Below are positions 4,831 to 23,382 of a DNA stretch of 39,422 nt, piece after piece; position 1 is the first letter of the stretch, and each line of letters opens with the position of its first letter. A program made the translations under genes and the position numbers. A model generated the notes under the pieces. The model did no database searches. It saw only the letters and a list, made by a program, of their open reading frames with translations, and was not told the origin of the DNA. The DNA is taken from positions 1 to 39,422 of the IMG/VR virus record IMGVR_UViG_3300047319_001490; one strand, written 5' to 3'. The stretch comes from a virus.

Positions 4831-6030
4831 TTACCAGGTGCTCCAGCCCATGCCGAGGGGCCACTCTTTTCCGTCGCCGTGCCACCCGTAGCCCGTGGTC
4901 AACTCACTGCCCAGTTGCCGCTGCTTGTGGCTCAGTTGCATCAATTTGGCTACGTTGGCCGCCGTGCGGGCCTTGGTGGCCAATGCGTCATATCTGGCGC
5001 CCTCTGGGCCGGTCGCCAGCGACTCGTAGGCATTGGCCAGCGTCACGGCCACCACCAGGTCCGGCGTCAGGAGGCATTCGTCCGAATCGTTGACCAGGCC
5101 CACGGTGGACGGTCCCCACGCGCCGCCCACGCGGATCCAGGTATCGGTAGGGCGGAACACCTCGACCGTCGCGGCGTTGCCCGTGGGCAGGGTGGGCGCG
5201 ATCTGCACGCTCAGGGCATCCACGTCGCCGACCGCCACGAACTGGCCCGCCGCAAACGAATTCAGCGTGCCGTCCAGTGCCGCGCGGCGGACCTCGAGCA
5301 CCGCGTCAGGATCGAGCCATTCCTCGTACGCCGCCAGGCTGTAACTGGCCTGGCCGTTCACCCCCGTCATGGGCAATCGCTGGGTGATCCAGCACTCTCC
5401 GAGAGCCTGGTTGATCAACGACCGAAGCCCCGTCCAGCCGTCGTCGTCGTCGGGTGGCAGCAGACGGTGGAGCTCGACGTCGACGCCGCTGGTCACCTGG
5501 CCGGGGAACGCTGGCGCCACCATCAATTCGCCGGTGGTCAGGTTCAAGGCGTCCTCGCTGCGGACCCGGCGCATCACAGCAGCCTGGGTGCCCGTCACGG
5601 GCATCACCCAGGCATGTTTGTAGCGATTCGCCGTCACCGCGTTGGCCAGTCGGGCTGACAGCACGCTGGTGCCGGCCGCGTTGCCTGGCGCGGTCGTGGT
5701 GACCGTGGTCAGACTGTGCAGGGCCTGGGCAACCAGCCGCCGCAGGGCCAGCAGTGAGCGCCGAGCGGACGCCGGCGCGGTGACCGGCCACGCCGCCGAG
5801 AACGGGCCGTAGGTGGGGCCTGGGGCGTAGCGCCTGACCTGGTACCAATCGGTCGACACTCCCGCCGAATCGACGTAGGTGTAGACCGTCTGGTGCAGCA
5901 CGTAGGGAATCGCTGACAGCAGCGTGAAGGGACCGGCTTGCACGCTGCCGTGCCACAGCTCCATCCCCGTCCACGTGCCGATCAGCGTGTCGACGAGGGG
6001 CTCGTTGAGCGAAATGGAATTACTGATCAG
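4831..6030 (-). CDS. Virion protein, head-to-tail adaptor candidate; likely CTG start
   Basis: A 399-aa protein. Its frame meets the end of the previous gene as CTGA: TGA stop 6027-6029, CTG 6028-6030. An AAAGGTGG purine run lies six bases before the CTG, and no ATG, GTG or TTG is suitably placed. ATG 5964 is the conventional alternative but would cut into an apparent beta domain. Residues 20-80 have an FN3-like beta pattern (ELWHGS..GPFTLL..YTYVDSAGV..WYQVRRY). The C-terminal half has helices such as LRSLINQALGECW and YESLATGPEGARYDALATKA. Size and position before the nozzle candidate suggest a tail tubular A-like adaptor, which is inference. Confidence 0.55.
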   Translation of the reverse strand: MISNSISLNEPLVDTLIGTWTGMELWHGSVQAGPFTLLSAIPYVLHQTVYTYVDSAGVSTDWYQVRRYAPGPTYGPFSAAWPVTAPASARRSLLALRRLVAQALHSLTTVTTTAPGNAAGTSVLSARLANAVTANRYKHAWVMPVTGTQAAVMRRVRSEDALNLTTGELMVAPAFPGQVTSGVDVELHRLLPPDDDDGWTGLRSLINQALGECWITQRLPMTGVNGQASYSLAAYEEWLDPDAVLEVRRAALDGTLNSFAAGQFVAVGDVDALSVQIAPTLPTGNAATVEVFRPTDTWIRVGGAWGPSTVGLVNDSDECLLTPDLVVAVTLANAYESLATGPEGARYDALATKARTAANVAKLMQLSHKQRQLGSELTTGYGWHGDGKEWPLGMGWSTW

Positions 6031-11672: not shown

Positions 11673-11751
11673 TCGCTGGCTAACTTGCGTCAGCGGCTGG
11701 GGTGACTACACGGTATCACACGGGTACAAATTCGCCCGCATGCCCCTCGGG

Positions 11752-12318
11752 TTATTGCTGCTGCGGGTGAGCCTCAACAAAACGCTTGATGACGGCGTAG
11801 TCCGCCACACGCAAGGTCGGCATATCGCCAGCGTGGTGGGTCGGTATCCACTCCGAGTCGATCTCTGCGACACGCGCGCGCCAGATACGCAGCAAGTCCA
11901 TCAGTGCGACGTGTTTGCGCGTGACTGAGCCGTCGAAGTCGTGCTGCTCATCGGTAAAGGCTGCCTTAGGCTTGCGTAATGCTGCGAAGTGGCCATCGGG
12001 TCGCTTGAGCGCCGAGCCCACCGCGGTCATATTGCTCAAGCTCTTGTACACCACAAATCGCACCGCACTCGCACGAGCCTTCGGGGTATCGACTACACTT
12101 GCTGCGACTCCAGCAAGTGTAGTCGCACGTGGCACCCGCTCTCGGTTGTAGCGTCGCCAGGCATAGCCCGCGGGAACGCGCGGGCTCACCTTCTCCAGTA
12201 TCTCATCGAACGTCAGGCCAGCCTGACCGGCCTGATCGAGCTCGTACCAGATTTGCATGGTGACGCTCGTGGCCCCAGCCGTATCACGGCCAGTGCCACG
12301 GACGCTTTCGCGCTTCAC
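11752..12318 (-). CDS. Hypothetical protein coupled to ParB-like gene (188 aa)
   Basis: A 188-aa basic, mainly helical protein. GTG 12316-12318 overlaps the ParB-like stop (GTGA); ATG 12258 (MQIWYELDQAG) is an alternative start. The segment GLTFDEILEKVSPRVPAG followed by AWRRYNRERVPRA looks like a winged-helix DNA-binding fold, as in phage helicase/primase-adjacent regulatory proteins. The C-terminal half (VALMDLLRIWRARVAEIDSE) is helical. Coupling suggests it works with the ParB-like protein. The exact role is unknown, and the winged-helix reading is tentative. Confidence 0.6.
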   Translation of the reverse strand: MKRESVRGTGRDTAGATSVTMQIWYELDQAGQAGLTFDEILEKVSPRVPAGYAWRRYNRERVPRATTLAGVAASVVDTPKARASAVRFVVYKSLSNMTAVGSALKRPDGHFAALRKPKAAFTDEQHDFDGSVTRKHVALMDLLRIWRARVAEIDSEWIPTHHAGDMPTLRVADYAVIKRFVEAHPQQQ

Positions 12319-13286
12319 GCGGTGACGAGTTCACGAGCTGGCTGATACAACTCGAGCATCCGTACGCTGAGTTGGGCCACCTGCTGCCACTGCTGGCTGC
12401 GCTCCTCGCGCTTGTCTTCACGCGGGTCGAACAACGCCTCCGGGTCAGCACTCAACTTCACGAGCGCGCTGATGTGCATCCCTACCTGGCGCACGGTGCC
12501 AGAGATGGAGACTTCACGGTCGCGCGGCGGGGGTCCGACCGAACTGTACTCACGCCTGGCCTGCACGATCGCCGAGATCGCATCGGCGTCTGATGGTGCC
12601 GCGTTGACCTGTTTGAGCAGATCGGTGATGGTCTTCTTGGCCGGGACCGCCTGGGCGACGAACTCGACGAACTCCCCGAATACGGGGTCGTGCTTGACCG
12701 AGTTCAGGCGAGCACGATTGTCCATGCTGATGCGATCGCGCTCGTTCTCGAGATGTAGTTTCAGGGTGCGCTCGGCGAACTCGAGTTGATTGCGAATACG
12801 CCGTACCTGCTCGGGTGATCGGCCGATCTCTCGCGCGATCGCCTCGTCTGCGAAATGCATGTCCATGAGCAGCTTCGCCGCATCGACGGCCTCTTCGGCC
12901 GATAGTCGCTTGCCGCCCATGTTGTTGATGGCGCCCGCCAACGACTTGGCCATCGGCACGCTCGGGAAGTTAATCAGATACGCGGCGATGGTTTTCTTGT
13001 GCAGTTTCCTGGCTGCACCAAGCCGCGTATTGCCATCGATCAAGGTATCCGGCGCCATCAGGATGACTGGCGGGAATGCAGCACCCGCCGCCATCTGCTG
13101 GCGGTACTCCTCGATCTCATCCTGGGGTGCGACGTGGTTCGCGCTGCGGACCTGAGCCCAGTCGGCAACGCGCAGTTGATCGATGGGAAAAGCGGGCTCG
13201 AGCCGATACTCGAGGTGCCACTCCTGAAACTTGGCCTCGTAGCGCGAGTCGCCGAGGAACAACGGTTGCGTGGTAGGTTCTGCCAC
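12315..13286 (-). CDS. ParB-like nuclease/CTPase-fold DNA-binding protein
   Basis: A 323-aa protein, GTG start at 13284-13286; an AAAGGAG purine run and a nearer AGG precede it. Residues ~34-105 form a ParB/sulfiredoxin-fold domain: FPIDQLRV, then FPPVILMAPDTLIDGNTRLG, the DGNxR variant of the ParB nucleotide-binding loop. Residues ~125-172 carry an HTH (LSAEEAVDAAKLL, AIAREIGRSPEQVRRIRNQL). The C-terminal ~150 residues are helical and end in a likely coiled coil. No ParA partner is present. Unusually, it lies inside the late operon between the 1900-aa virion gene and the scaffold. It could act in plasmid-prophage partition, in DNA packaging/ejection, or as a transcription regulator. Confidence 0.8.
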   Translation of the reverse strand: MAEPTTQPLFLGDSRYEAKFQEWHLEYRLEPAFPIDQLRVADWAQVRSANHVAPQDEIEEYRQQMAAGAAFPPVILMAPDTLIDGNTRLGAARKLHKKTIAAYLINFPSVPMAKSLAGAINNMGGKRLSAEEAVDAAKLLMDMHFADEAIAREIGRSPEQVRRIRNQLEFAERTLKLHLENERDRISMDNRARLNSVKHDPVFGEFVEFVAQAVPAKKTITDLLKQVNAAPSDADAISAIVQARREYSSVGPPPRDREVSISGTVRQVGMHISALVKLSADPEALFDPREDKREERSQQWQQVAQLSVRMLELYQPARELVTA

Positions 13287-13323
13287 GGGTTACCTGATCT
13301 CCTTTACAGATCGGGTGGCCTAG

Positions 13324-13356
13324 GGAGAGCCGCGAGGTCTCATCTCGCGGCTCTCC
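13324..13356. repeat. Perfect 13-bp stem inverted repeat
   Basis: Arms GGAGAGCCGCGAG (13324-13336) and CTCGCGGCTCTCC (13344-13356) flank a 7-base loop. No T-run follows on either strand, so it is not a standard intrinsic terminator. On the minus strand it would fold in the 5' leader of the ParB-like mRNA. Confidence 0.85.
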
Positions 13357-13484
13357 TGCCACTCAACGAAGAGTGTATCGCGCCACTGCGCAGTGCCGTC
13401 AACGCTGGGTTGACGCCACGTTGAGTTTCCGTGGCCTAGGTGCGCCAGTGCCAACACGGCCTGCAAAATTCTCGCAAAGCGCTA

Positions 13485-13501
13485 TCGCTGAAACTCAGCG
13501 A
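13485..13501. repeat. 7-bp arm palindrome, operator-like
   Basis: TCGCTGA and TCAGCGA are separated by AAC. It lies 27 bases from the larger palindrome at 13529 and could be a second protein-binding site. Confidence 0.6.
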
Positions 13502-13528
13502 AATCAGACACAACCCGAGCCGATCCAG

Positions 13529-13635: not shown

Positions 13636-13815
13636 ATGAACCTCTCCTACTCGGACACCCTGTATGCCATCGTCGGGTTTGGCACGATGGCCCTCGGCCT
13701 GTGGGCGCTGTCCCGCCACCCGGTCATGCAGGATCTGCGCGGATGGGTGAGGTCGAAACTGCCGCATGACGACGGCTCCAGCTGGGCAACGCACTACTTC
13801 GGCCGACCACGCTAA
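13636..13815 (+). CDS. Small single-TM protein on the opposite strand
   Basis: A 59-aa frame on the plus strand, against all its neighbours. Residues ~9-26 (LYAIVGFGTMALGLWALS) form one likely membrane segment, followed by a basic/polar tail. A TATAAC hexamer at 13619-13624 ends 11 bases before ATG 13636, so the mRNA would be nearly leaderless, and no clear ribosome-binding site is seen. Its TAA overlaps the TAG of the convergent 1900-aa gene. It may be a real small membrane protein with its own promoter, but the support is moderate. Confidence 0.45.
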   Translation: MNLSYSDTLYAIVGFGTMALGLWALSRHPVMQDLRGWVRSKLPHDDGSSWATHYFGRPR

Positions 13816-16800
13816 GCCGCCGGTAACGCTTTCGGCGGTGTCAGCAGTCTGATCCGCCCCTCGGCCATCCTGGCCTGACGATCCGTCGGCGCCATCGCCG
13901 CGTACACCTGAGCCTCGGCATAATCTCGTGCCGCCTGGGTCTGCACCTCAAGCACTTTTTTGCGCGCCTCTGGCGTGCGCCGCTGCCAGTTCGGATCGCT
14001 CACCTGGGCGTTGAGGCGCTGTTGCAACAACTCACCGAACTTCTGCTGGTAGGTGTTCTTTTCCGCTTCGGTCAGCGTCATCGGCGGGCTCAAGCTATTG
14101 GTCAACGGATTCTTGACGCGGATCTCTGACGGTGCGTTGGGGATGCCCATGCCCACATCTCGAAACGCGTTCAGGATCGGCTCGGGCTGGGAGCTGCTGT
14201 ACTTCAGGGGCGAGATGAACGCGCCAGCCCCGGTCTGGTCGCTCTGGATGTCCTGGCCCAACGCGTTCTGCCGCCGCGGCACGTTCTCGGCTACGCCTGG
14301 GATGAGCGCCTCGATCGCTTGAATCGCGCCTTTCGGGTTCCGGTCGGCCTGCCCCAGAGCTCGGGTCATCTGCCGGGCGAACGAGGCGTAGGGCACGAAC
14401 GACGTGGCCAGTTGCTCGGTGACGTTCTCGCTGTACCGCTTGGGGTCCTGTACGGCGTTCATCACCGCGTTGAGCCCCTGCAGGAACGTCTGATCGGTCA
14501 TGAATTTCCCGAGGGACACGGCCAATCGGGTGGGGTCCGACACCGAGCCTTCCTGCTGCGACTGACCAACGACCGCGCCGATGGCCAGCGGGATGGAAAG
14601 CGGGCCAAGTTTGCTCAGGTCGATATAGGTGAAGTTGCCCTGACCATCGGGGATCTTGAGGCTCCAGGGCTGCCAGCCGGTTGGCAGCGTGTCGCGTTCT
14701 TTCGGATCGGCCGGGTACCCGCCGGTGACCAGGCCATGCGCCGCGAGCGCCGCGGTGCCGGCTATCACGCTCGAGCCGAACAGCACCCGCGCGCCCGAGT
14801 CTGCCGCTGCGCCCGTATCACCGGCTCTGATGTGCTGCAGCAGGTCGATCGCCCCCGCCGGCGAGAGTTCCAGCCCCTGGGCCAGGATATTCGCGGGCGT
14901 CTTCGTGAAGGGCACCACCAGCTCACGAATGATGCGGGCCGCCATATTCTTCGGACCAGGCCCGCGGCCGATAGAGCTGAACGCCGACGCCAGGGAATTC
15001 GGCTCCTGCAGCACCGAGTGGGCGGCGGTCTTGTCTGCCTCGGCCATGATGGCCGGATACTCGGGCAGGTTCTGCATGATCTCGTCCATGCGCGCCCGCA
15101 GCGCCTGGCCCGTGTAGCCCTCCTGAATCGCACGCCGCGCCACGATCGCCCTGGTCGCGCCACCACGCGCGGCACCCCTGAAGACCAGGTCCGACGCCTC
15201 GAGCGCACGCAGGGGCATCTCCACCGCCGCGTCGAGCTTGCTGCTGCCCGATTGAAAGCCGCCGCGCACGTTCTCGAGCTTTCCCGCGCTCTGGGGATTG
15301 ACCCCCGTTCGCAATGTCGTCAGGGCCTCGCCGAGTCCCTGCACGGCCCCTTCCGCCATACCCCGTAACTGGGGCGCGATCTCGCCCATGTAGCGCGTGC
15401 GCGGGCCCCCCGTGGCCGCGGCGCGTGCGGCGTCGATGCCGACCGCCAGCGGCTTCAGGCCCACGTCCAGGCCGCCCTGGATGGTGTTGCCCAGGGCATT
15501 CGTCAGATGCGTGGTGGTCGCGCTGAGCATGCTGGCGTAGCGCAACATGCTGATGCGGTCCCACCAACTGACGTGCTGCAAGCTCTGCAGGAACTTCGCC
15601 GCCGCCAGAGGATTGCCCGACTGCTGAGCCGCGACAAACTGTTTCAGCACGTCGTCGGTCACGGCTTTGCCGCCCATCTTCTCGAGCAACCGCCCTGCCT
15701 GCTCGGTCTGGCGCGAGGCAACCCGCGACTGAGCGTCGAACGCTGCCGCGCTGCGCCGGTTGGCCAGGTTCGCGTCCCGCCGAGCATTCTGGGCCTCCGC
15801 GTCGAGCCACGCCACCGGCCCATTCCTCGAACCGGGCTTGTCCACGCCGGCCTGCTTCAACCCCTCGAGCCGCTTGGCGGCATCCGCGGCAGTCCTGTCG
15901 CCCGCCGCCTTGGTGGTCTTGAAATAGCCACGTTCAGCGGCGAGTTCATTGTTCAGCGCGTCCAGCAATTCTTGAGGCGCGCTGGTGTTCTTCAGGGCCT
16001 CGGCCCGTTTGGCTGCCGCCGCTACGCGCTGGGCGTCCCGCGTGGCCAGGTCGGCGCCCTTCTCGTCGATCGACATGGCGTGGTACGCGGCCAGGTCGTC
16101 ATACGCCTTCGCAATCTTGTCCAGGAGCGTGCTGGTCTGCGGGGTGCTGGCCGGCCGGGCGGCGCGTGCCTCGGAGGTGATCCGTTGTGCGGCTCTGACC
16201 GCGTTCGCCTTCTCGGTGGCCAGTTGCGTGTTGTTCGCGGCCAGCTTCTGCGCTCGAGCCAGGCGCGCCTCCGCGGCATCAGCCGCCGCCTTGGCCGCGC
16301 GGGCCTCGTTCCCGCCAGTGATGGCCTGGGCCATCTCCTGGTTGATGACGATCTTCTGCTGGTTCAGCGTCCGCCCAGCCGTCGCCGCGGCGCCACGACC
16401 GACCGCCTGCAAGCGTGCGGCATCCACGATCTGGGCGATGTACTCGGCCTTCTGGGTCGGCGTCAGCGCCTCAACGCCACCTTTCGCGGCGATATCCGCG
16501 GCCATCCGCGCGGCCTGCACTTGCTTCTGGACGACCGCCGCACGCAGCGTCAGCAGCTCTTGGGGGTTGTACGCCTTGCCGATCGGTGATTTCTGGAACT
16601 CGGCGGTGGTCATGCCCAGTTTGGGGGCCAGGTCTTCGACGAGTTGCTGGTGGGTGATCCGCCCCTGGGTGTACGCGTCCATGAGGTTTGGGTTCTCTTC
16701 GGCCACGCGCTGCAGGGAGGCGGCTACCTCGGGCATCTCGGGCGCCAGCTTGGCAATGTTGGGCATACGCGCCACGGTGGCGGCGGATGGCGCAGCGACC

Positions 16801-19514
16801 TCGGCGCCGGCACCGGCTGACCGCACGATGCCCACGTCCTGACCCTGTCGGGCCACGGTGCTGAGCACTTCACCCCGAGGTCCCAGAATCTGGACCGGGC
16901 CAGTCTCACGTGGAACGATCAGCCCACGGTCGAGAGCTTGCTCGACGGGCGATGCCTTCGCACCTGGCGGGACCAGGTGGTCGAGCGCATTGGTCGCCGG
17001 CGCGGGAGTTACGGCCGGGGTTGTGGCTTCGGCTGGGGCTGGGGTTGGGACTGCGCCGGGTTCTGCTGCTCGAATCGGCGCTGTCGGTCCAGTGCCGCCT
17101 GGTGCAGTCGCCGGATTCGGGCCTGCGCTGCTCGGATTCGTTCCCGCGGCGTCATCGGGGGCAGTGTACGGCCGGACCGGTGCGGACACGGTAGGCGCAG
17201 CGGCGGCATCTTGCGCGAGCACGTCCTCCGCCCATGGCTTGTGTGGGACGTCCTCTGGCGCGGTCGAGGCGACAATGCGCTGGGCTTCGGCGATCACCGC
17301 GGGCGGAGCTTTGGAAGCGGTGACGTCTGCCACGGCACCGGCCGGTCGGCCAAGCCCCAGCAGACCGGCGCCACCCTCGAGCGTGCGACCGGCCATCTGG
17401 GCGGCCTGTTCCTCGAGCGGGGCGATCTTGTTACCCAGGGCATCCACGGCTTCCTTACCGCCGCCTAGCTCCATGCCACCGATGAGCATCACCATGTTGC
17501 CGGCGCGCTCCCGGTCCTCGGGTGTGAACCGATCGTCAGGGATGGTGGTGCCGTACTTGGCCATCAGGTCGCGCGAGATGGCCGTGTAGCTCTCGCCACC
17601 CGTGAGCGCCCTCAATGCCACCGCGGGCAGGCTCGGATCGTTCTGAATGTTCGAACTGACCGCATTGCCGACCGTGTTGATGGCGTTGAGAGCCAGGTTG
17701 CCCGCCCCGCTCACGATGGGGATGCCTGGAGGCACTGGTCCCTCGGTGGCGCCGGGCGTCGACGGTACCGTGCTGCGGTCAGCCGGCGGCACCGTGCTGA
17801 GGGTGGGGTTCGTCAGACTGTCTGACGGTGTAGGCTGCTGAGCGGCGGCCAGTGGCTGCGGACCCAGCGCAGTGTGGACGGCTGAGCCGACGCTACTGGC
17901 CGCGTTCCCCACGGTCTGGCCAATACCGCCCGCGATGTTGCCCGCCTGTCTGAGGGCTTCGCCAAACGGATTACTGATGGTCTCGTCGGTCTGCGGGGTG
18001 ACGCCAGCCACCAGGTTGGCCTTGGTCATCCACTGGGAGGCTTGCTGGGCAGGACCAGGCTGAGACGGCTGGGCGGGGGCAGCCACGCTGGGCGTGGCAC
18101 TGGTGGGGTTGTCGGCGTACAGTGCCGCACGGACGGCACCCATGCCCACGCCACCGATCTGGGCGGCGCTCATCCACTGGCTGCCCTGGCGCAAGTCGGT
18201 GCCGCTGGTGCCCACGTTGAACTCGAGTCCGTTCTGTCCCTGGCGGACGCCACTGACGTAGAAATAGTGACCGGGCGTGTCGAGGATGACGGGGTTGCCG
18301 TTGGCGGCGTCGGCGGCCACGTGGTTCCAGTCGACGGTGCTTTCGAGCTTGGTGGGGATGCCCATTTTGCCGAGCAACTGCTGCTCGGACGACACGCCGG
18401 CCATGCCCGAATCGGCGGTCCAGCCCACGCTGCTGGCCAACTGCATCGCCTCGTTGGGCGTGGGATACCGTCCGTACGTGTTGGCGAACGCGATCGCGGC
18501 GGCCGGGCCACACGCGGCGTACGCGGCCTGGGCACTCAACCCCAGGCCGAACTGCGAGGTCCGCGCGGCCGGGCCACTACCCAGCGGGTTGGTCAATGCG
18601 TCTGACGGCGTGGGGGCCAGGTTCGCCGGTCGGCCGCCGATCCCATCCATGGGACCAATGCCCACGCGTGCGGCGCCGTGGAACGGCCCCCAGCCCGATT
18701 TCGTCACGTTGCTCAGGGCGTAGTCGATGGCGGCAGCCGCGTTGTTGGGGTCGCGGGCGTCCAAACCCGTGGCCGCGGTGAACGCGTCCCCCAGGCCACT
18801 CACGGCGTTACCACCGCTGGCCACATCGCCGTAGTGCAACTGGAACGGCCCGAAGCTCGAGCCCGAGTCACCAGGTCGGGCGCCTTCGGACAGGCCGCCT
18901 TCGCTCATGGCCACGCGTACGGCCGTGTCGGGATCGATGCCGTAGCGGGCGGCGCTGTCGCGCACGATGCTTTCCAGATCGCCGCCGCTGGCCTGGTTGG
19001 CTTGCGTCTGGATGGGATTCGTCAGCGTGTCGCTGCCCGTGGGCGCCGACCAGGTGGGCGTGGGCGGTGGAGGTGCTTGCGGTTGGGTGATGCCCTGGAG
19101 TTGGCGGAACGCTTCCCCGAAGGGGTTGCTGATCGTCTCGTCGGGCGAGGGTGGCGCTGGGGCGATCGGCTGCTGGGTTGGTGGTGGCGCACCGGGAAAG
19201 ACCAGGGGCGCGGTGACGGGTGGTGGGGCTGAGGACGCTACAGGAGGAGGCTGGGACGCGTCAGTACTGGGCGTGCCCTCTGGAACGGTGCCGACTAAAG
19301 GGGCAGGTTGCGGCGCCGCCTGCATCGGTTGGGTGAGGCTGTCGCTCGAGGTGGGCACGTCCAGGGCTGGCGGGGGTGGCACGGGGATAGGCTGCAGGTT
19401 GGCCACCTGTTGCGCCTGCCACGCGTCGGCCACGGCAGCATTGGCCTTCTGTGCCCACTGGTCGGCCTGGAAACCGTTCAGTTGATCGGGCGTCAGGGCG
19501 AAGTTGACCGGCAT
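13812..19514 (-). CDS. Giant internal virion (ejection) protein with transglycosylase-like and C39-like peptidase domains
   Basis: A 1900-aa protein, ATG 19512-19514. Residues 1-170 are Pro-rich linker. Residues ~175-290 are a transglycosylase/lysozyme-like domain with Glu205 in VAMSEGGLSEG and SSFGPFQLH. Residues ~320-465 are a C39-like peptidase with Cys335 (YAACGPAAAI), His416 (DTPGHYFYVSG) and a following Asn/Asp. A linker motif (S/T)D-x-(L/I)-(T/S)-(N/Q)P recurs six times between residues 57 and ~570. The middle is long coiled coil. The C-terminal ~650 residues include RELVVPFTKTPANILAQGLE and hydrophobic segments, resembling the large polyvalent protein domain LPD38. It likely travels in the capsid, is ejected, opens the wall and helps form the DNA channel. 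Confidence 0.75.
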   Translation of the reverse strand: MPVNFALTPDQLNGFQADQWAQKANAAVADAWQAQQVANLQPIPVPPPPALDVPTSSDSLTQPMQAAPQPAPLVGTVPEGTPSTDASQPPPVASSAPPPVTAPLVFPGAPPPTQQPIAPAPPSPDETISNPFGEAFRQLQGITQPQAPPPPTPTWSAPTGSDTLTNPIQTQANQASGGDLESIVRDSAARYGIDPDTAVRVAMSEGGLSEGARPGDSGSSFGPFQLHYGDVASGGNAVSGLGDAFTAATGLDARDPNNAAAAIDYALSNVTKSGWGPFHGAARVGIGPMDGIGGRPANLAPTPSDALTNPLGSGPAARTSQFGLGLSAQAAYAACGPAAAIAFANTYGRYPTPNEAMQLASSVGWTADSGMAGVSSEQQLLGKMGIPTKLESTVDWNHVAADAANGNPVILDTPGHYFYVSGVRQGQNGLEFNVGTSGTDLRQGSQWMSAAQIGGVGMGAVRAALYADNPTSATPSVAAPAQPSQPGPAQQASQWMTKANLVAGVTPQTDETISNPFGEALRQAGNIAGGIGQTVGNAASSVGSAVHTALGPQPLAAAQQPTPSDSLTNPTLSTVPPADRSTVPSTPGATEGPVPPGIPIVSGAGNLALNAINTVGNAVSSNIQNDPSLPAVALRALTGGESYTAISRDLMAKYGTTIPDDRFTPEDRERAGNMVMLIGGMELGGGKEAVDALGNKIAPLEEQAAQMAGRTLEGGAGLLGLGRPAGAVADVTASKAPPAVIAEAQRIVASTAPEDVPHKPWAEDVLAQDAAAAPTVSAPVRPYTAPDDAAGTNPSSAGPNPATAPGGTGPTAPIRAAEPGAVPTPAPAEATTPAVTPAPATNALDHLVPPGAKASPVEQALDRGLIVPRETGPVQILGPRGEVLSTVARQGQDVGIVRSAGAGAEVAAPSAATVARMPNIAKLAPEMPEVAASLQRVAEENPNLMDAYTQGRITHQQLVEDLAPKLGMTTAEFQKSPIGKAYNPQELLTLRAAVVQKQVQAARMAADIAAKGGVEALTPTQKAEYIAQIVDAARLQAVGRGAAATAGRTLNQQKIVINQEMAQAITGGNEARAAKAAADAAEARLARAQKLAANNTQLATEKANAVRAAQRITSEARAARPASTPQTSTLLDKIAKAYDDLAAYHAMSIDEKGADLATRDAQRVAAAAKRAEALKNTSAPQELLDALNNELAAERGYFKTTKAAGDRTAADAAKRLEGLKQAGVDKPGSRNGPVAWLDAEAQNARRDANLANRRSAAAFDAQSRVASRQTEQAGRLLEKMGGKAVTDDVLKQFVAAQQSGNPLAAAKFLQSLQHVSWWDRISMLRYASMLSATTTHLTNALGNTIQGGLDVGLKPLAVGIDAARAAATGGPRTRYMGEIAPQLRGMAEGAVQGLGEALTTLRTGVNPQSAGKLENVRGGFQSGSSKLDAAVEMPLRALEASDLVFRGAARGGATRAIVARRAIQEGYTGQALRARMDEIMQNLPEYPAIMAEADKTAAHSVLQEPNSLASAFSSIGRGPGPKNMAARIIRELVVPFTKTPANILAQGLELSPAGAIDLLQHIRAGDTGAAADSGARVLFGSSVIAGTAALAAHGLVTGGYPADPKERDTLPTGWQPWSLKIPDGQGNFTYIDLSKLGPLSIPLAIGAVVGQSQQEGSVSDPTRLAVSLGKFMTDQTFLQGLNAVMNAVQDPKRYSENVTEQLATSFVPYASFARQMTRALGQADRNPKGAIQAIEALIPGVAENVPRRQNALGQDIQSDQTGAGAFISPLKYSSSQPEPILNAFRDVGMGIPNAPSEIRVKNPLTNSLSPPMTLTEAEKNTYQQKFGELLQQRLNAQVSDPNWQRRTPEARKKVLEVQTQAARDYAEAQVYAAMAPTDRQARMAEGRIRLLTPPKALPAA

Positions 19515-19517
19515 CGG

Positions 19518-21125
19518 CTAGACCCCGCCGCTGCCCTGACCAACCCCTGACGATGCGTACTGCTTCAGCCAGTCATCGGGGCTGTACCCGAGTTTGGTAC
19601 CGCCGGCCTTGAAGATCGCCAGTTCGGAGGGAGTCATTCGTTCAATAGACCCCGCTGCCAGTTGAGACGGCCCGCGCTGAAAGATGCTGCCGATCTGCGA
19701 CAGCGCCTGGTCGGTGTTGTAACCAGGGCTGCTCGTATCCGTGGCCCCGGTCAGACCACCCGCCAGTGAGCCCATGGTCACCGGTGTGGCCGTCTGAGAG
19801 CCAACACCGTTGAACGAGGGCAACTGGGTATTACTGGCCAGTGCCCCCAGAAATGACGGCATCTGACCTGTGGATTGGGCACCTCTCAGGAAATCCGCGG
19901 CGTTGAAGACGTTGGACGGTCCGCCCAGGCTGGCCGCGGTTGTCAGGTAATTCAAGCCCTGGGTCGAGTTGAACTGGGCCTGTTGCTGGGCAAGGTTACG
20001 AGAGAACTCGCTGGCGGCCTCGGTGGGGGCGCCGTTGTACATGCCGCTCAGGTTGGCCTGCTGGAGAGCGCCAGCCAGGGTCTGGGTGCCGAGCGGGGTC
20101 GTCGTGCCGTTGGGCACCACCGACGACCCACCGGACGCCAGGGGCACGCTGGGGGCTGCCGTAGCGGGTGCGGCCGCTGGTGGCGGGGCGGTGAACGAGA
20201 TGCCCTGAGGCATGCCGTAGGCCACGTTGCCTGACTGGGCGTAGCCCTGGGCAAACTCCGATTGCGCCGTCTGCGCCGCCTGGGTGGCGCCCATGCCGTT
20301 GGCTTGCAACTGCGGGATACGCGCGGCGAGCCACTGCGCGGAGGTGGGCGCTTGCCAGGTGCTCGCAGGTGCGGCTACCGCGGCCTGGGCTGGTGCCGTG
20401 AAACTGATGCCTTGCGGTAGGCCGTACGCGACGTTGCCGCTCTGGGCGTAACCCTGGCTCCATTCGGACTGGGCGGTCTGCTGGGCCTGCACGGCCCCCA
20501 TCCCCTGACCCTGAAGTTGCTGCGTCCTGGCCTGGATGTACTGGGCCTGCGTCGACGGCGTGAACGCCCCGCCCGCGGTACCCGATACCGCGGCCGCTCC
20601 GCCGCCGACGGGCTGACCGTACTGCATCTGCTGCACCGCGCTGCCGGTGGGGGTGATGTCGGGGGCGTTGTAGTAGCCCGTCAGCCCGGCCACGGTGGCC
20701 GCGTTGGCCTGGGCCTGGGTCTGCTGCGCCAGTGCCAACTGGGCACGGAACTGCTCGTCCTCGAGCGCTTGCGACCGCTGGGCGATCTCTAATGTCGGCA
20801 GACCCTGCTGCTGCCACATCAATTGCTGCTGCGCCAATGTGGCATTGAATTGCCGCGCTGACTCGGCCAGGGCTTCACGCGTGGTGCCGGCGCTCTGCTG
20901 CGCGGCATTGATGACAGCCTGTTGCTGAGCAGGCGTGCCTGGTAGCCCTGGATCGTACGCACCCCCGCCCGTGCTCTGACCGACTGCGCCACCACCGCCC
21001 CCGCCCGTGCCACCGTCGGGACTCACGCCGAACGTGCCCATGGCAGGCGTCCAGCCCTTGGCAAGCGCGTCAGCCGTCGAACTGACTTCCATCGAGCCAC
21101 CGTTGGGATTGGGGACTAAGACCAT
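19518..21125 (-). CDS. Gln/Ala-rich internal virion protein with tandem repeat
   Basis: A 535-aa protein, ATG 21123-21125 with GGAGG upstream. After a Gly-rich linker (TGGGGGGAVGQSTGGG) comes a Gln-rich helix (residues ~65-145, QQQLMWQQQGLPTLEIAQ). Then two ~55-residue near-copies follow at 191-245 and 261-314, sharing TAQSE and QGYAQSGNVAYG. The C-terminal part is Ser/Thr/Gly-rich, ending ELAIFKAGGTKLGYSPDDWL. Low complexity, size and position between the 589- and 1900-aa genes suggest an ejection protein packaged in the capsid, comparable in role to T7 internal core proteins. No sequence family is recognised. Confidence 0.6.
   Translation of the reverse strand: MVLVPNPNGGSMEVSSTADALAKGWTPAMGTFGVSPDGGTGGGGGGAVGQSTGGGAYDPGLPGTPAQQQAVINAAQQSAGTTREALAESARQFNATLAQQQLMWQQQGLPTLEIAQRSQALEDEQFRAQLALAQQTQAQANAATVAGLTGYYNAPDITPTGSAVQQMQYGQPVGGGAAAVSGTAGGAFTPSTQAQYIQARTQQLQGQGMGAVQAQQTAQSEWSQGYAQSGNVAYGLPQGISFTAPAQAAVAAPASTWQAPTSAQWLAARIPQLQANGMGATQAAQTAQSEFAQGYAQSGNVAYGMPQGISFTAPPPAAAPATAAPSVPLASGGSSVVPNGTTTPLGTQTLAGALQQANLSGMYNGAPTEAASEFSRNLAQQQAQFNSTQGLNYLTTAASLGGPSNVFNAADFLRGAQSTGQMPSFLGALASNTQLPSFNGVGSQTATPVTMGSLAGGLTGATDTSSPGYNTDQALSQIGSIFQRGPSQLAAGSIERMTPSELAIFKAGGTKLGYSPDDWLKQYASSGVGQGSGGV
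20184..20345 (-). repeat. Tandem coding repeat, copy B
   Basis: Second copy of the ~55-residue unit, residues 261-314. It shares QGYAQSGNVAYG-x-PQGISFTAP with copy A, and the DNA is also clearly related. Confidence 0.8.
20391..20555 (-). repeat. Tandem coding repeat, copy A
   Basis: First copy, residues 191-245, separated from copy B by a short Ala/Pro-rich linker. Substitutions (Leu/Met, Trp/Phe) are conservative, so the repeat is under protein-level constraint. Confidence 0.8.
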
Positions 21126-21134
21126 GGCGGCCTC

Positions 21135-22904
21135 CTAGTACTGCACGCCGTGGCGCGCGGCGGCATTTGGATACAGCGCCGCCACGTCGGCCGGTGTGCC
21201 GGGCACCGCCTGAGAGGCGGCCCTGACCAGACCGCTGACGCTCGAGGGACCGCTGCCGTACACGTCCTGGGCGCCGCCCACGGTGCGGCTGCTGTAGCCA
21301 GCCAGGGGTTGCAGGATGGGGTCGAGCCCCGTGCCAGCCACGCCTGGTTGCAGCAATGGCGCCGGGGTGGCCGGCGGGGCGCCGTTCGCGCCCGTGCCGC
21401 CGATGTTGATGGTGATGGTGTGGCCGCTCGAGTCGGTGGTGGTGGGTGGTGGTGGGGCGACCGTCGCCGGCGGAACCGCTACCGGCGGGACCGTCGCCAC
21501 CCCTGGCCCTTGACCCGAGGCGAGCTGCTGCTGGGCCTGGTTGACCATATTCCCGATGGGGCTGGGCGTGGGATTGGGACCGGTCCCCAGGTAATCCGTG
21601 GGAGTGGCTGCCGGCACCTGCTGGGATTTCAGGTAGTCCTGAGCCATGCCCATCATGGCCAGGTACGCGCGACCACTGGCATCCGAGCCTGGCTGACCGT
21701 TTTTGTTGAGGTCGCCGAACATGGTCCCGGCGCTACCAATCAGGTTGCCGTAGGTGCTGGCCAGACTGTCACGGTTCGTCACGTCCTGGCCGCGTGCCGT
21801 CAGCGCATCGGTGGCCTGACGTTGGGCAACCTCGTACGGGGTGGTGCCGCGCTTAACGGCGGCGATCATCTGGTCCGCGTCCTGGGGCGTGAGCTGGCCC
21901 GCGGCGATCAGGTCGTGGATCTGCTTGATCTTGTCCTGCAGCCCGTACAGCATCGGCCCCTGCAAGCCCTGCTGCACCGTGGCGTTGCTGGCGGCCGTAG
22001 CGGCCTGGGTACCGGCTAACGTGGCGCCCTGCTGGGCGACGGCGCCGGGGGCCAGAGCTTTCGCCTGGGCCAGGGCTTGCTGCGCGGTGTCGTTCTGGGT
22101 TTGCGCCGTGTCCAGCGCGTTCTGGATGGCTTGCTGCGCCTGGGCATCGGACGGCGCCTGGCGAGCTCGTCGCTGCGCATCCTCCAGGTTGGCCTTAGCC
22201 ACGTCAGCATTGGTCTGTAGCGTGGTGAGGTTGGCCGATGCGGTGGCGGCCGCGTTGGCCGCCGTGGCCGTGTCGACGGCGCGCTGGCCCGTGGTGAGCG
22301 CCTCGTCTGGCGTCTTGGGCGGCACGTACGCCGGGTTTTTGACGGGGTTGCCAGCGCCGTCGTAGATGAACTCGGACGTCGGTACGGCGCCACCCACGTT
22401 GGCCGGTCTGGGCGGTTCGTAGGCGGGGTTGTCGACCAGTACCCCGTTTTTCAAGATCATGCGCGACGTCGGCGCCGCGGTGATCTTGTCGTCGGCTCCG
22501 GCGGCGCCGGCTACGTCGACCTTGGTGATGGGCGTCGTCTTGTCGAGGGTCCATCCGCCCTGGCCGTCGGCGATCTCGCGGATCGTGACCAGGACGTTGC
22601 CGCTGGTCGTGTCGAGGCGGTCGCGCGTGGTGCCCTTGGGCTGGAACGTCTTGGCCGTGACCGCGGCCTTGTCCGACTCGGTGATGGCGGTCTGGTAAGC
22701 GGCCTCGGAGGTGGCCGACCGTTTGGCTGCGGCGTCGAGCTGCTTGGCCAGACTCTGGTATTCGTTCTCCCTGATGCCACCCGACGTCTTCTCATTGGCC
22801 GGGATGGCCTCCATGGCCTGGTTGATGCGGTCCCAATCGGCATTCGCGGCAGCGAGGGTGTTGGCCGCGGTTTCGATGGACCGCGCGTACGGGCTGTCAG
22901 GCAC
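21135..22904 (-). CDS. Coiled-coil internal virion protein candidate (589 aa)
   Basis: A 589-aa protein, GTG 22902-22904, overlapping the end of the 161-aa gene. Residues ~1-95 are helical (ETAANTLAAANADWDRINQA). Residues ~140-215 have two NPAY-containing segments (DNPAYEPPRP, KNPAYVPPKTPDEA). Residues ~215-310 are a long Ala/Gln coiled coil. The C-terminal third is Pro/Thr-rich with VAVPPATVAPPPPTTT. It sits in the cluster after the portal with two other low-complexity giants, a typical place for ejection proteins of short-tailed phages. The family is unrecognised and the role is inferred. Confidence 0.6.
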   Translation of the reverse strand: MPDSPYARSIETAANTLAAANADWDRINQAMEAIPANEKTSGGIRENEYQSLAKQLDAAAKRSATSEAAYQTAITESDKAAVTAKTFQPKGTTRDRLDTTSGNVLVTIREIADGQGGWTLDKTTPITKVDVAGAAGADDKITAAPTSRMILKNGVLVDNPAYEPPRPANVGGAVPTSEFIYDGAGNPVKNPAYVPPKTPDEALTTGQRAVDTATAANAAATASANLTTLQTNADVAKANLEDAQRRARQAPSDAQAQQAIQNALDTAQTQNDTAQQALAQAKALAPGAVAQQGATLAGTQAATAASNATVQQGLQGPMLYGLQDKIKQIHDLIAAGQLTPQDADQMIAAVKRGTTPYEVAQRQATDALTARGQDVTNRDSLASTYGNLIGSAGTMFGDLNKNGQPGSDASGRAYLAMMGMAQDYLKSQQVPAATPTDYLGTGPNPTPSPIGNMVNQAQQQLASGQGPGVATVPPVAVPPATVAPPPPTTTDSSGHTITINIGGTGANGAPPATPAPLLQPGVAGTGLDPILQPLAGYSSRTVGGAQDVYGSGPSSVSGLVRAASQAVPGTPADVAALYPNAAARHGVQY

Positions 22905-23382
22905 CGCTCATCTCCATGGCCATGGGCTCGGGTGTTGGCTCAGGGCTGGGCGGGGCCTGAGCCGCGATACGCGCGGCGCGCTGGGCCAGCTGCACGCTGC
23001 GTTCAGGTGTGGTCACCCCCAGCATCAGCAGTGCCGAACGGTGCGGGTACGCCTTGTCCAGGGCTGTCCTTTCGGCCATCTGGTGGGCCTGCTGGATCTT
23101 GTCGAGCCGATCCTGGGGTGCAAGGTTGGGCATCTGGCTGATCTCGTTCATCAGCGACTCGAGGGCCAGGTCGTGGAGCTGCCAGTACACGAACGGGGCG
23201 CGATCGCCGAAGGGGCTGAACGTCCACATGTCGCGCACCTGGTCCGTGCTGGGCTCCTGCGTGCCAGGCGGGGGCTCGTCGAGGGCATCCACGATGTGCT
23301 GGGCCTTGTCGTTGAGCATCTCCACGATCATCGTTGCCCTGCGCTCGAGGGTGTTGGGGATCTTCGAATAGTCGGTGGGCAT
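22897..23382 (-). CDS. Hypothetical protein downstream of portal (161 aa)
   Basis: A 161-aa helical protein, ATG 23380-23382 overlapping the portal stop by one base. It opens DYSKIPNTLERRATMIVEML, has a Trp/Phe-rich mid-section (DMWTFSPFGDRAPFVYWQLH) and ends in a Pro/Glu-rich tail (PPSPEPTPEPMAMEM). No family is recognised. Coupling to the portal and its small helical nature suggest a portal-associated, scaffold-like or head-completion factor. Confidence 0.6.
   Translation of the reverse strand: MPTDYSKIPNTLERRATMIVEMLNDKAQHIVDALDEPPPGTQEPSTDQVRDMWTFSPFGDRAPFVYWQLHDLALESLMNEISQMPNLAPQDRLDKIQQAHQMAERTALDKAYPHRSALLMLGVTTPERSVQLAQRAARIAAQAPPSPEPTPEPMAMEMSGA

Follow-up and report, generated by a model that had tools for sequence, protein, structure and literature searches.

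A predicted 1900-residue ejection protein of a short-tailed phage with two wall-cutting domains, a variable slot and a C-terminal hub

Gene layout and predicted wall-cutting domains

The window analysed here is the whole IMG/VR record IMGVR_UViG_3300047319_001490, a complete-looking stretch of 39,422 bp with a 74-bp end repeat, which leaves 39,348 unique bases. It contains a gene for a protein of 1900 amino acids (aa), a candidate internal virion (ejection) protein, encoded on the minus strand by an unbroken open reading frame (ORF) with its ATG at 19514 and its stop codon ending at 13812 (Table 1). This is the ORF reported, without its strand, in an initial annotation of the DNA, and its share of the genome, given there as about 14%, was computed as 14.5% (5703 of the unique bases). 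Other genes of the window code for an integrase, the large terminase and the major capsid protein. Among named phages, the closest capsid proteins are those of Pony, Palmer and Pavlov, which infect Bacillus, and of the Paenibacillus vB_PlaP phages, all of them podophages. The virus is probably a short-tailed phage with an integrase gene, and the 1900-aa chain is probably its large internal virion protein. The relatives compared below are designated by L numbers.

Table 1. Features of the ejection-protein gene and of the genes upstream of it (positions in the window)
Feature	Position	Strand	Basis
Whole internal virion (ejection) protein ORF, 1900 aa	13812..19514	-	phrog_6651 match, E 9.8e-17
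N-terminal region, residues 1-178, 22% Pro, three of six motif copies	18981..19514	-	composition
Glycan hydrolase of the lysozyme superfamily (transglycosylase-like), residues 179-300	18615..18980	-	homologues, conserved residues, SLT alignment
E205, presumed catalytic Glu	18900..18902	-	kept in 67/67; aligned with SLT catalytic Glu
C39-like papain-fold cysteine peptidase, residues 321-470	18105..18554	-	Pfam profile, conserved Cys/His
C335, presumed nucleophile, sole Cys of the chain	18510..18512	-	conservation, Cys count
H416, presumed catalytic His	18267..18269	-	kept in 24/24
Linker, residues 471-725, motif copies at 510 and 564, conserved segment 641-724 at its end	17340..18104	-	
Cassette slot, residues 726-841	16992..17339	-	sequence and length differ in each of four close relatives
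147-bp cassette remnant, residues 781-829	17028..17174	-	89.8% identical to 3' end of L181 cassette
Ala-rich region before the hub, residues 842-1240, presumed helical	15795..16991	-	composition
Helical hub type A, internal virion protein D family, residues 1241-1770	14205..15794	-	profile, tblastn, model
C-terminal tail, residues 1771-1900, 52% shared even with LPD38-type L005	13815..14204	-	alignment
535-aa Cys-free protein directly upstream, candidate co-ejected protein	19518..21125	-	inference
589-aa Cys-free protein, candidate co-ejected protein	21135..22904	-	inference
161-aa Cys-free protein, candidate small ejection protein	22897..23382	-	inference

The first of two predicted enzymes corresponds to the transglycosylase-like Glu domain of the initial annotation, which proved to be real. 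E205, S220, Q225 and G274-W275 are invariant in all 67 homologues of this domain, and the helix carrying E205 aligns with the catalytic helix and Glu of a genuine Pfam SLT domain (hhalign E 1e-4). The Pfam SLT profile (PF01464) itself had no match in the window protein, and residues 179-300 stand outside Pfam. Domains of this type were found in 249 stretches of IMG/VR. Phages of Ochrobactrum, Sinorhizobium, Sulfitobacter and Rhizobium also have them, in their internal virion or tape-measure proteins, with 41-53% identity between the window domain and those of phages OH, phiM5, GT1 and RHph. The ratio of nonsynonymous to synonymous substitution rates (dN/dS) is 0.04-0.10. The region is presumed to form a separate branch of the lysozyme superfamily and is predicted to cut glycan strands, as either a transglycosylase or a hydrolase.

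The second predicted enzyme had been described as a C39-like Cys/His domain. In the window protein the Peptidase_C39_2 profile (PF13529) stays below threshold (E 8.5e-4, 20.3 bits vs a cut-off of 24); relatives with 51-60% identity exceed the Pfam threshold, and all 24 homologues compared keep both C335 and H416, which supports the description. The dN/dS of this domain is 0.007-0.15. From the average of the other window genes about 11 cysteines would be expected in 1900 residues, but C335 is the only one; likewise, 19 of 21 C39-bearing ORFs have exactly one, and an ORF with tandem C39 domains has two. That the chain is otherwise purged of Cys yet keeps exactly the presumed nucleophile argues for a working enzyme. 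Degenerate active sites, which the annotation had named as a sign to the contrary, were not seen: E205, C335 and H416 are intact and under selection. Searching PDB sequences with profiles of both enzymes yielded no relevant match, and tblastn at E 1e-3 found no window-type C39 domain in cultured phages. L163 (4714-11034) encodes a 2107-aa protein with two tandem C39-like domains and exactly two cysteines.

As judged from sequence, both predicted wall-cutting positions are exchangeable among relatives, one being taken by a transglycosylase-like domain, SLT or glucosaminidase, the other by C39 or NlpC/P60. With the same hub, L157, L160 and L172 have a front end of Pfam SLT plus C39, and L162 one of glucosaminidase plus C39. 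L180, L181 and L182 have the N-terminal scaffold and one C39 in common; their glycan cutters differ, being a glucosaminidase, an SLT domain and another glucosaminidase, respectively.

These exchanges bear on what the peptidase might cut. Classical C39 peptidases cut Gly-Gly leader peptides, and the chain is Gly-rich and multi-domain. The C39-like domain might accordingly process the chain or its partners, at capsid maturation or after ejection, in place of acting as a murein peptidase. Polyvalent proteins, moreover, often carry processing peptidases (PMC5512222). We consider such a processing role unlikely. L022, with the same hub and glycan hydrolase, has NlpC/P60 (E 2e-17), a murein endopeptidase family, where the window has C39. 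In L165 and L168 the hydrolase and C39 pair forms a separate protein of 483-489 aa, apart from the hub although its gene adjoins the hub gene, and across relatives the C39-like domain pairs with three different glycan-hydrolase families. What stays constant is that a single glycan cutter accompanies a single papain-like peptidase, and this speaks for joint opening of murein more than for self-processing.

Two further proteins combine such domains differently. L167 (7527-14822) has them in reversed order, with C39 followed by a FlgJ-type glucosaminidase and an LPD38-type hub like that of L005. L081 (9479-20374, on the same contig as L173) joins a window-like front of glycan hydrolase and C39 to an open frame of >3600 aa with an HSP90-type ATPase match; no hub was found in the available part of this very large polyvalent protein.

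The C-terminal hub and its relation to polyvalent proteins

Residues 1241-1900 place the protein among internal virion proteins. A match to the phrog_6651 'internal virion protein' profile covers residues 1576-1726, and tblastn aligned the hub with annotated internal virion protein D of Desulfovibrio phage ProddE and of Roseobacter phages (E 8e-14 and 1e-8). An NCBIfam search with the 1900-aa protein gave no match. The hub has a dN/dS of 0.02-0.035, so by this measure it is, like the front domains, under strong purifying selection; between the window and L003 the shared C-terminus is nearly identical in alignment.

An AlphaFold2 (AF2) model calculated from an alignment of 39 hubs was confident (pLDDT 84.7, pTM 0.78) and showed a packed helical fold. 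The 'long coiled coils' of the initial annotation were thus imprecise, as residues 842-1240 are Ala-rich and presumably helical and the remainder is modelled as a packed fold. BFVD matches to the model include, at E 1e-11 to 1e-15, internal virion proteins from the Synechococcus cyanophages S-CBP2, S-CBP3 and S-RIP1 and from a Pelagibacter phage and, at E 1e-16 to 1e-21, proteins whose names refer to ART-PolyVal, LPD and MuF-C domains. Matches in IMG/VR and in genomes have the hub at the C-terminus or close to it, preceded by ~280 to >3,000 aa of non-hub sequence, and the domains upstream of it in other proteins include ART-PolyVal, PBECR1, PBECR5, ddrB-ParB, MuF-C, LPD23 and a Strawberry-notch-type helicase. 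Because it matches both classes, the modelled hub appears to be shared between T7-like internal virion proteins and polyvalent proteins; in the collection of papers searched, none names the two together. L153 (2-11776, a contig labelled as a Candidatus Cloacimonadota metagenome-assembled genome) encodes a 3925-aa hub protein with ART-PolyVal stretches, PBECR5, ddrB-ParB and MuF-C in one chain.

The C-terminus had been called polyvalent-type with an LPD38-like end, and a profile search of it had been suggested. The first part stands insofar as the predicted fold of the hub is shared with polyvalent proteins. LPD38 (PF18857) was not detected: there is no Pfam match in the window protein, and its hub has only the last ~95-130 residues in common with the LPD38-type hub of L005 (~95 aa by hhalign), so this assignment was rejected. 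The sister phage L005 does match LPD38 (E 1.7e-6), having a different hub behind the same front end (93%); an LPD38-type hub also occurs in L170, and L164 and L167 are L005-like relatives. As L005 keeps a window-like front end together with a related tail, whole hubs are evidently exchanged too.

The protein could also be the tail tape-measure protein of a long-tailed phage, since the same glycan-hydrolase domain is present in tape-measure proteins of Rhizobium phages. The hub, which belongs to internal virion proteins, the nearest relatives of the capsid protein (Pony, Palmer, Pavlov and the vB_PlaP phages) and the genome size of ~39 kb make this highly improbable.

The cassette slot upstream of the hub

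Compared with its close relatives L002, L003, L004 and L005, the window has flanks that are 82-96% identical in DNA where alignable, while residues 726-841 differ in every one of them; phages 92-95% identical in residues 1-725 hold unlike inserts here. L002 has a block of ~0.6 kb in the slot with 86-88% DNA identity to blocks in L180, L181 and L182. This block is the sole alignable DNA between L002 and L180 and between L002 and L181; with L182, L002 shares one additional piece of 324 bp (69%). At the wall-opening end, L180-L182 match L002 with an identity of only about 29-30%, and two kinds of hub occur. L005 and L181 have a second cassette in common (627 bp, 88.8%). The piece left in the window recurs in L005 (171 bp, 86%), and apart from this remnant the window slot is a low-complexity, A/P-rich sequence with no recognisable domain. 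Keeping just 147 bp of the 3' end of the second cassette, it is a nearly emptied slot.

The block of L002 carries YHGT and GHYLAT motifs, and the L002-type cassette is a probable, if putative, host-modifying ART-like effector. No such cassette was found in plasmids, and in cultured phages there were only weak matches, to Caulobacter phages (E 0.05). In L180, the region before the ART-like block (about 4861-6000) may be a second payload, resembling by eye a GNAT acetyltransferase with the motif QQRGGLATAAMRDL; it has no Pfam match at E 0.5.

Ordinary drift with insertions and deletions in a disordered linker, without any payload, would also produce a variable slot. The A/P-rich window slot without a recognisable domain agrees with that, and linkers of such proteins vary freely, but we find this explanation doubtful in view of the ~0.6-kb block, which stays 86-88% identical between L002 and three contigs with otherwise little or no alignable DNA, has a dN/dS of 0.13-0.22 and gives a weak ART-PolyVal match in all four. 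The second cassette shared by L005 and L181 argues in the same direction, as do the ART-PolyVal, PBECR1, PBECR5, ddrB-ParB, MuF-C or helicase domains that other hub proteins bear upstream of the hub.

It is very unlikely that L002 and similar variants are assembly chimeras and the exchange unreal. L002 is indeed short, a contig of 7,959 bp that is truncated at the 5' end, and all variants come from metagenome assemblies. However, the ART block occurs in four contigs from different metagenomes, in frame within open genes, 85-92% identical and with different neighbours, and the pattern recurs independently in the second cassette and, in the 38.8-kb contig L005, in the exchange of the hub.

The initial annotation had also raised possible early intracellular functions. 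Relatives do carry effector domains in the same chain, whereas the window protein combines two enzymes, both wall-directed, with a hub and an essentially empty slot. As this slot holds no recognisable domain, an early intracellular function is not supported for this phage and could be proposed only by analogy with its relatives.

Proposed ejection pathway, known systems and neighbouring genes

The modules are joined by linkers whose Pro content, measured at 19-22%, confirms the Pro-rich character noted earlier. A motif, [SDT][DE]x[LI][TS][NQ]P, occurs six times in the linkers around the modules (residues 57, 125, 161, 304, 510 and 564), and shuffled versions of the linker region yield at most one copy. 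In T7, the gp16 'molecular tape' binds gp15 (PMC8954989), and by likeness to it one may speculate that the motif-bearing linkers dock on a tunnel partner.

Two wall-cutting domains fused to an internal-virion-protein hub fit an ejected wall-opening protein that aids DNA entry. We think it likely that the ejected chain cuts murein twice and that the hub helps DNA across the inner membrane, with a payload carried in addition by relatives. The chain would leave the capsid before or together with the DNA; residues 179-300 would act on the glycan strand, and the C39-like domain would cut the stem peptide or the cross-link. With their six motif copies, the Pro-rich linkers would form a flexible tape that might attach to a tunnel protein as its partner, and the helical hub of ~660 residues would enter or contact the inner membrane and help the DNA through. 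At the slot, related phages trade cassettes by recombination, some of these encoding probable ART-like effectors that would be delivered with the chain; in the window phage this position would travel essentially empty. Of the interpretation first given to this gene, the single chain with two wall-degrading domains, their active sites intact and selected, on a podovirus hub holds, and the LPD38 end does not.

Several observations weigh against this pathway. Homology of the hub to T7 gp16 was not found (hhalign E 0.26 with the single sequence, 0.76 with a six-member gp16 profile), and in the PDB the hub has only weak Foldseek matches, mostly to membrane transporters, and VIA Z scores did not exceed 5.3. 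Given neither a sequence relation to T7 gp16 nor a PDB fold match, it is family membership and analogy that suggest a channel function. The ART-PolyVal (PF18760) matches of the L002, L180, L181 and L182 blocks are below the cut-off (E 0.01-0.04), and the AF2 model of the L002 cassette was too poor to use (pLDDT 50), so its matches were ignored. Family searches with the 535-, 589- and 161-aa proteins encoded upstream gave no family match.

Among known systems, T7 gp16, also a large internal virion protein, resembles the window protein in having a murein glycan hydrolase with a catalytic Glu at the N-terminus, an extended linker and a large helical C-terminus (PMC8954989). The window protein adds the C39-like enzyme, long Pro-rich linkers with repeated motifs and the cassette slot, and its hub is not detectably related. 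Internal virion protein D of ProddE and the Roseobacter CRP phages and the proteins of S-CBP2, S-CBP3 and S-RIP1 have a homologous hub by sequence and/or predicted fold; those of ProddE and CRP phages, with lengths of 1211-1334 aa, gave no tblastn or blastp match to the wall-cutting domains of the window.

Burkholderia podovirus JC1 gp69 has an N-terminus resembling lytic transglycosylases (LT) and an LPD38 C-terminus and is present in purified virions (PMC9144972). This giant 'DarB-like' protein and its Bcep22 relatives share the LT-like N-terminus with the window protein and have mid-chain payload domains and a C-terminal LPD domain (PMC9144972). Unlike the window protein, gp69 has 4515 aa and an LPD38-type end in place of the window hub, and C39 was not reported. 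Phage polyvalent proteins in general are multidomain chains thought to be injected with the DNA, with lysozyme and ART domains among them (PMC5512222); they share the hub fold, but in the window protein neither an LPD nor an intracellular effector domain was detected, and both of its enzymes are wall-directed. Sinorhizobium phage phiM5 gp28 ('internal virion protein/exolysin') has a homologous glycan-hydrolase domain (45% identity) that was detected in the particle proteome (GenBank note); at 514 aa it has neither C39 nor hub, and separate internal virion proteins follow. The detection of phiM5 gp28 in particles and of JC1 gp69 in purified virions is the closest experimental support for the proposed pathway.

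LT-bearing ejection proteins and virion giants running from LT to LPD38 are already known, as is mosaicism of hydrolase domains, described for the T7 gp16 class (PMC8954989). The double wall cutter joined to a hub, the sharing of this hub by two named classes and a slot with exchange at the DNA level appear to be new. We see about even chances for a broader view, in which podovirus ejection proteins are interchangeable delivery chains made of a wall-opening front, a slot prone to recombination that takes up host-acting effectors, and a hub that T7-like internal virion proteins share with polyvalent proteins, the slot being reloaded or emptied by exchange within the population. If so, early host takeover would evolve through the exchange of parts within a structural protein of the virion, and internal virion proteins and 'polyvalent' injected proteins would be one delivery system. 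The hub would then offer a sequence handle for finding injected effectors, located just upstream of it, and the double front end would supply naturally paired enzymes for cutting the glycan and peptide parts of murein. The slot would provide natural near-isogenic pairs, with the same backbone and different cassettes, for studying injected effectors.

Two further observations concern the surroundings of the gene. The 535-aa protein directly upstream has an internal repeat of about 75 aa. On the other side, the ejection-protein gene adjoins a block (11734-13528) that encodes a ParB-like protein (12315-13286) and a protein of 188 aa. L010 has this block, whereas L002, L005 and L006 lack it at this position, and it represents an accessory insertion.

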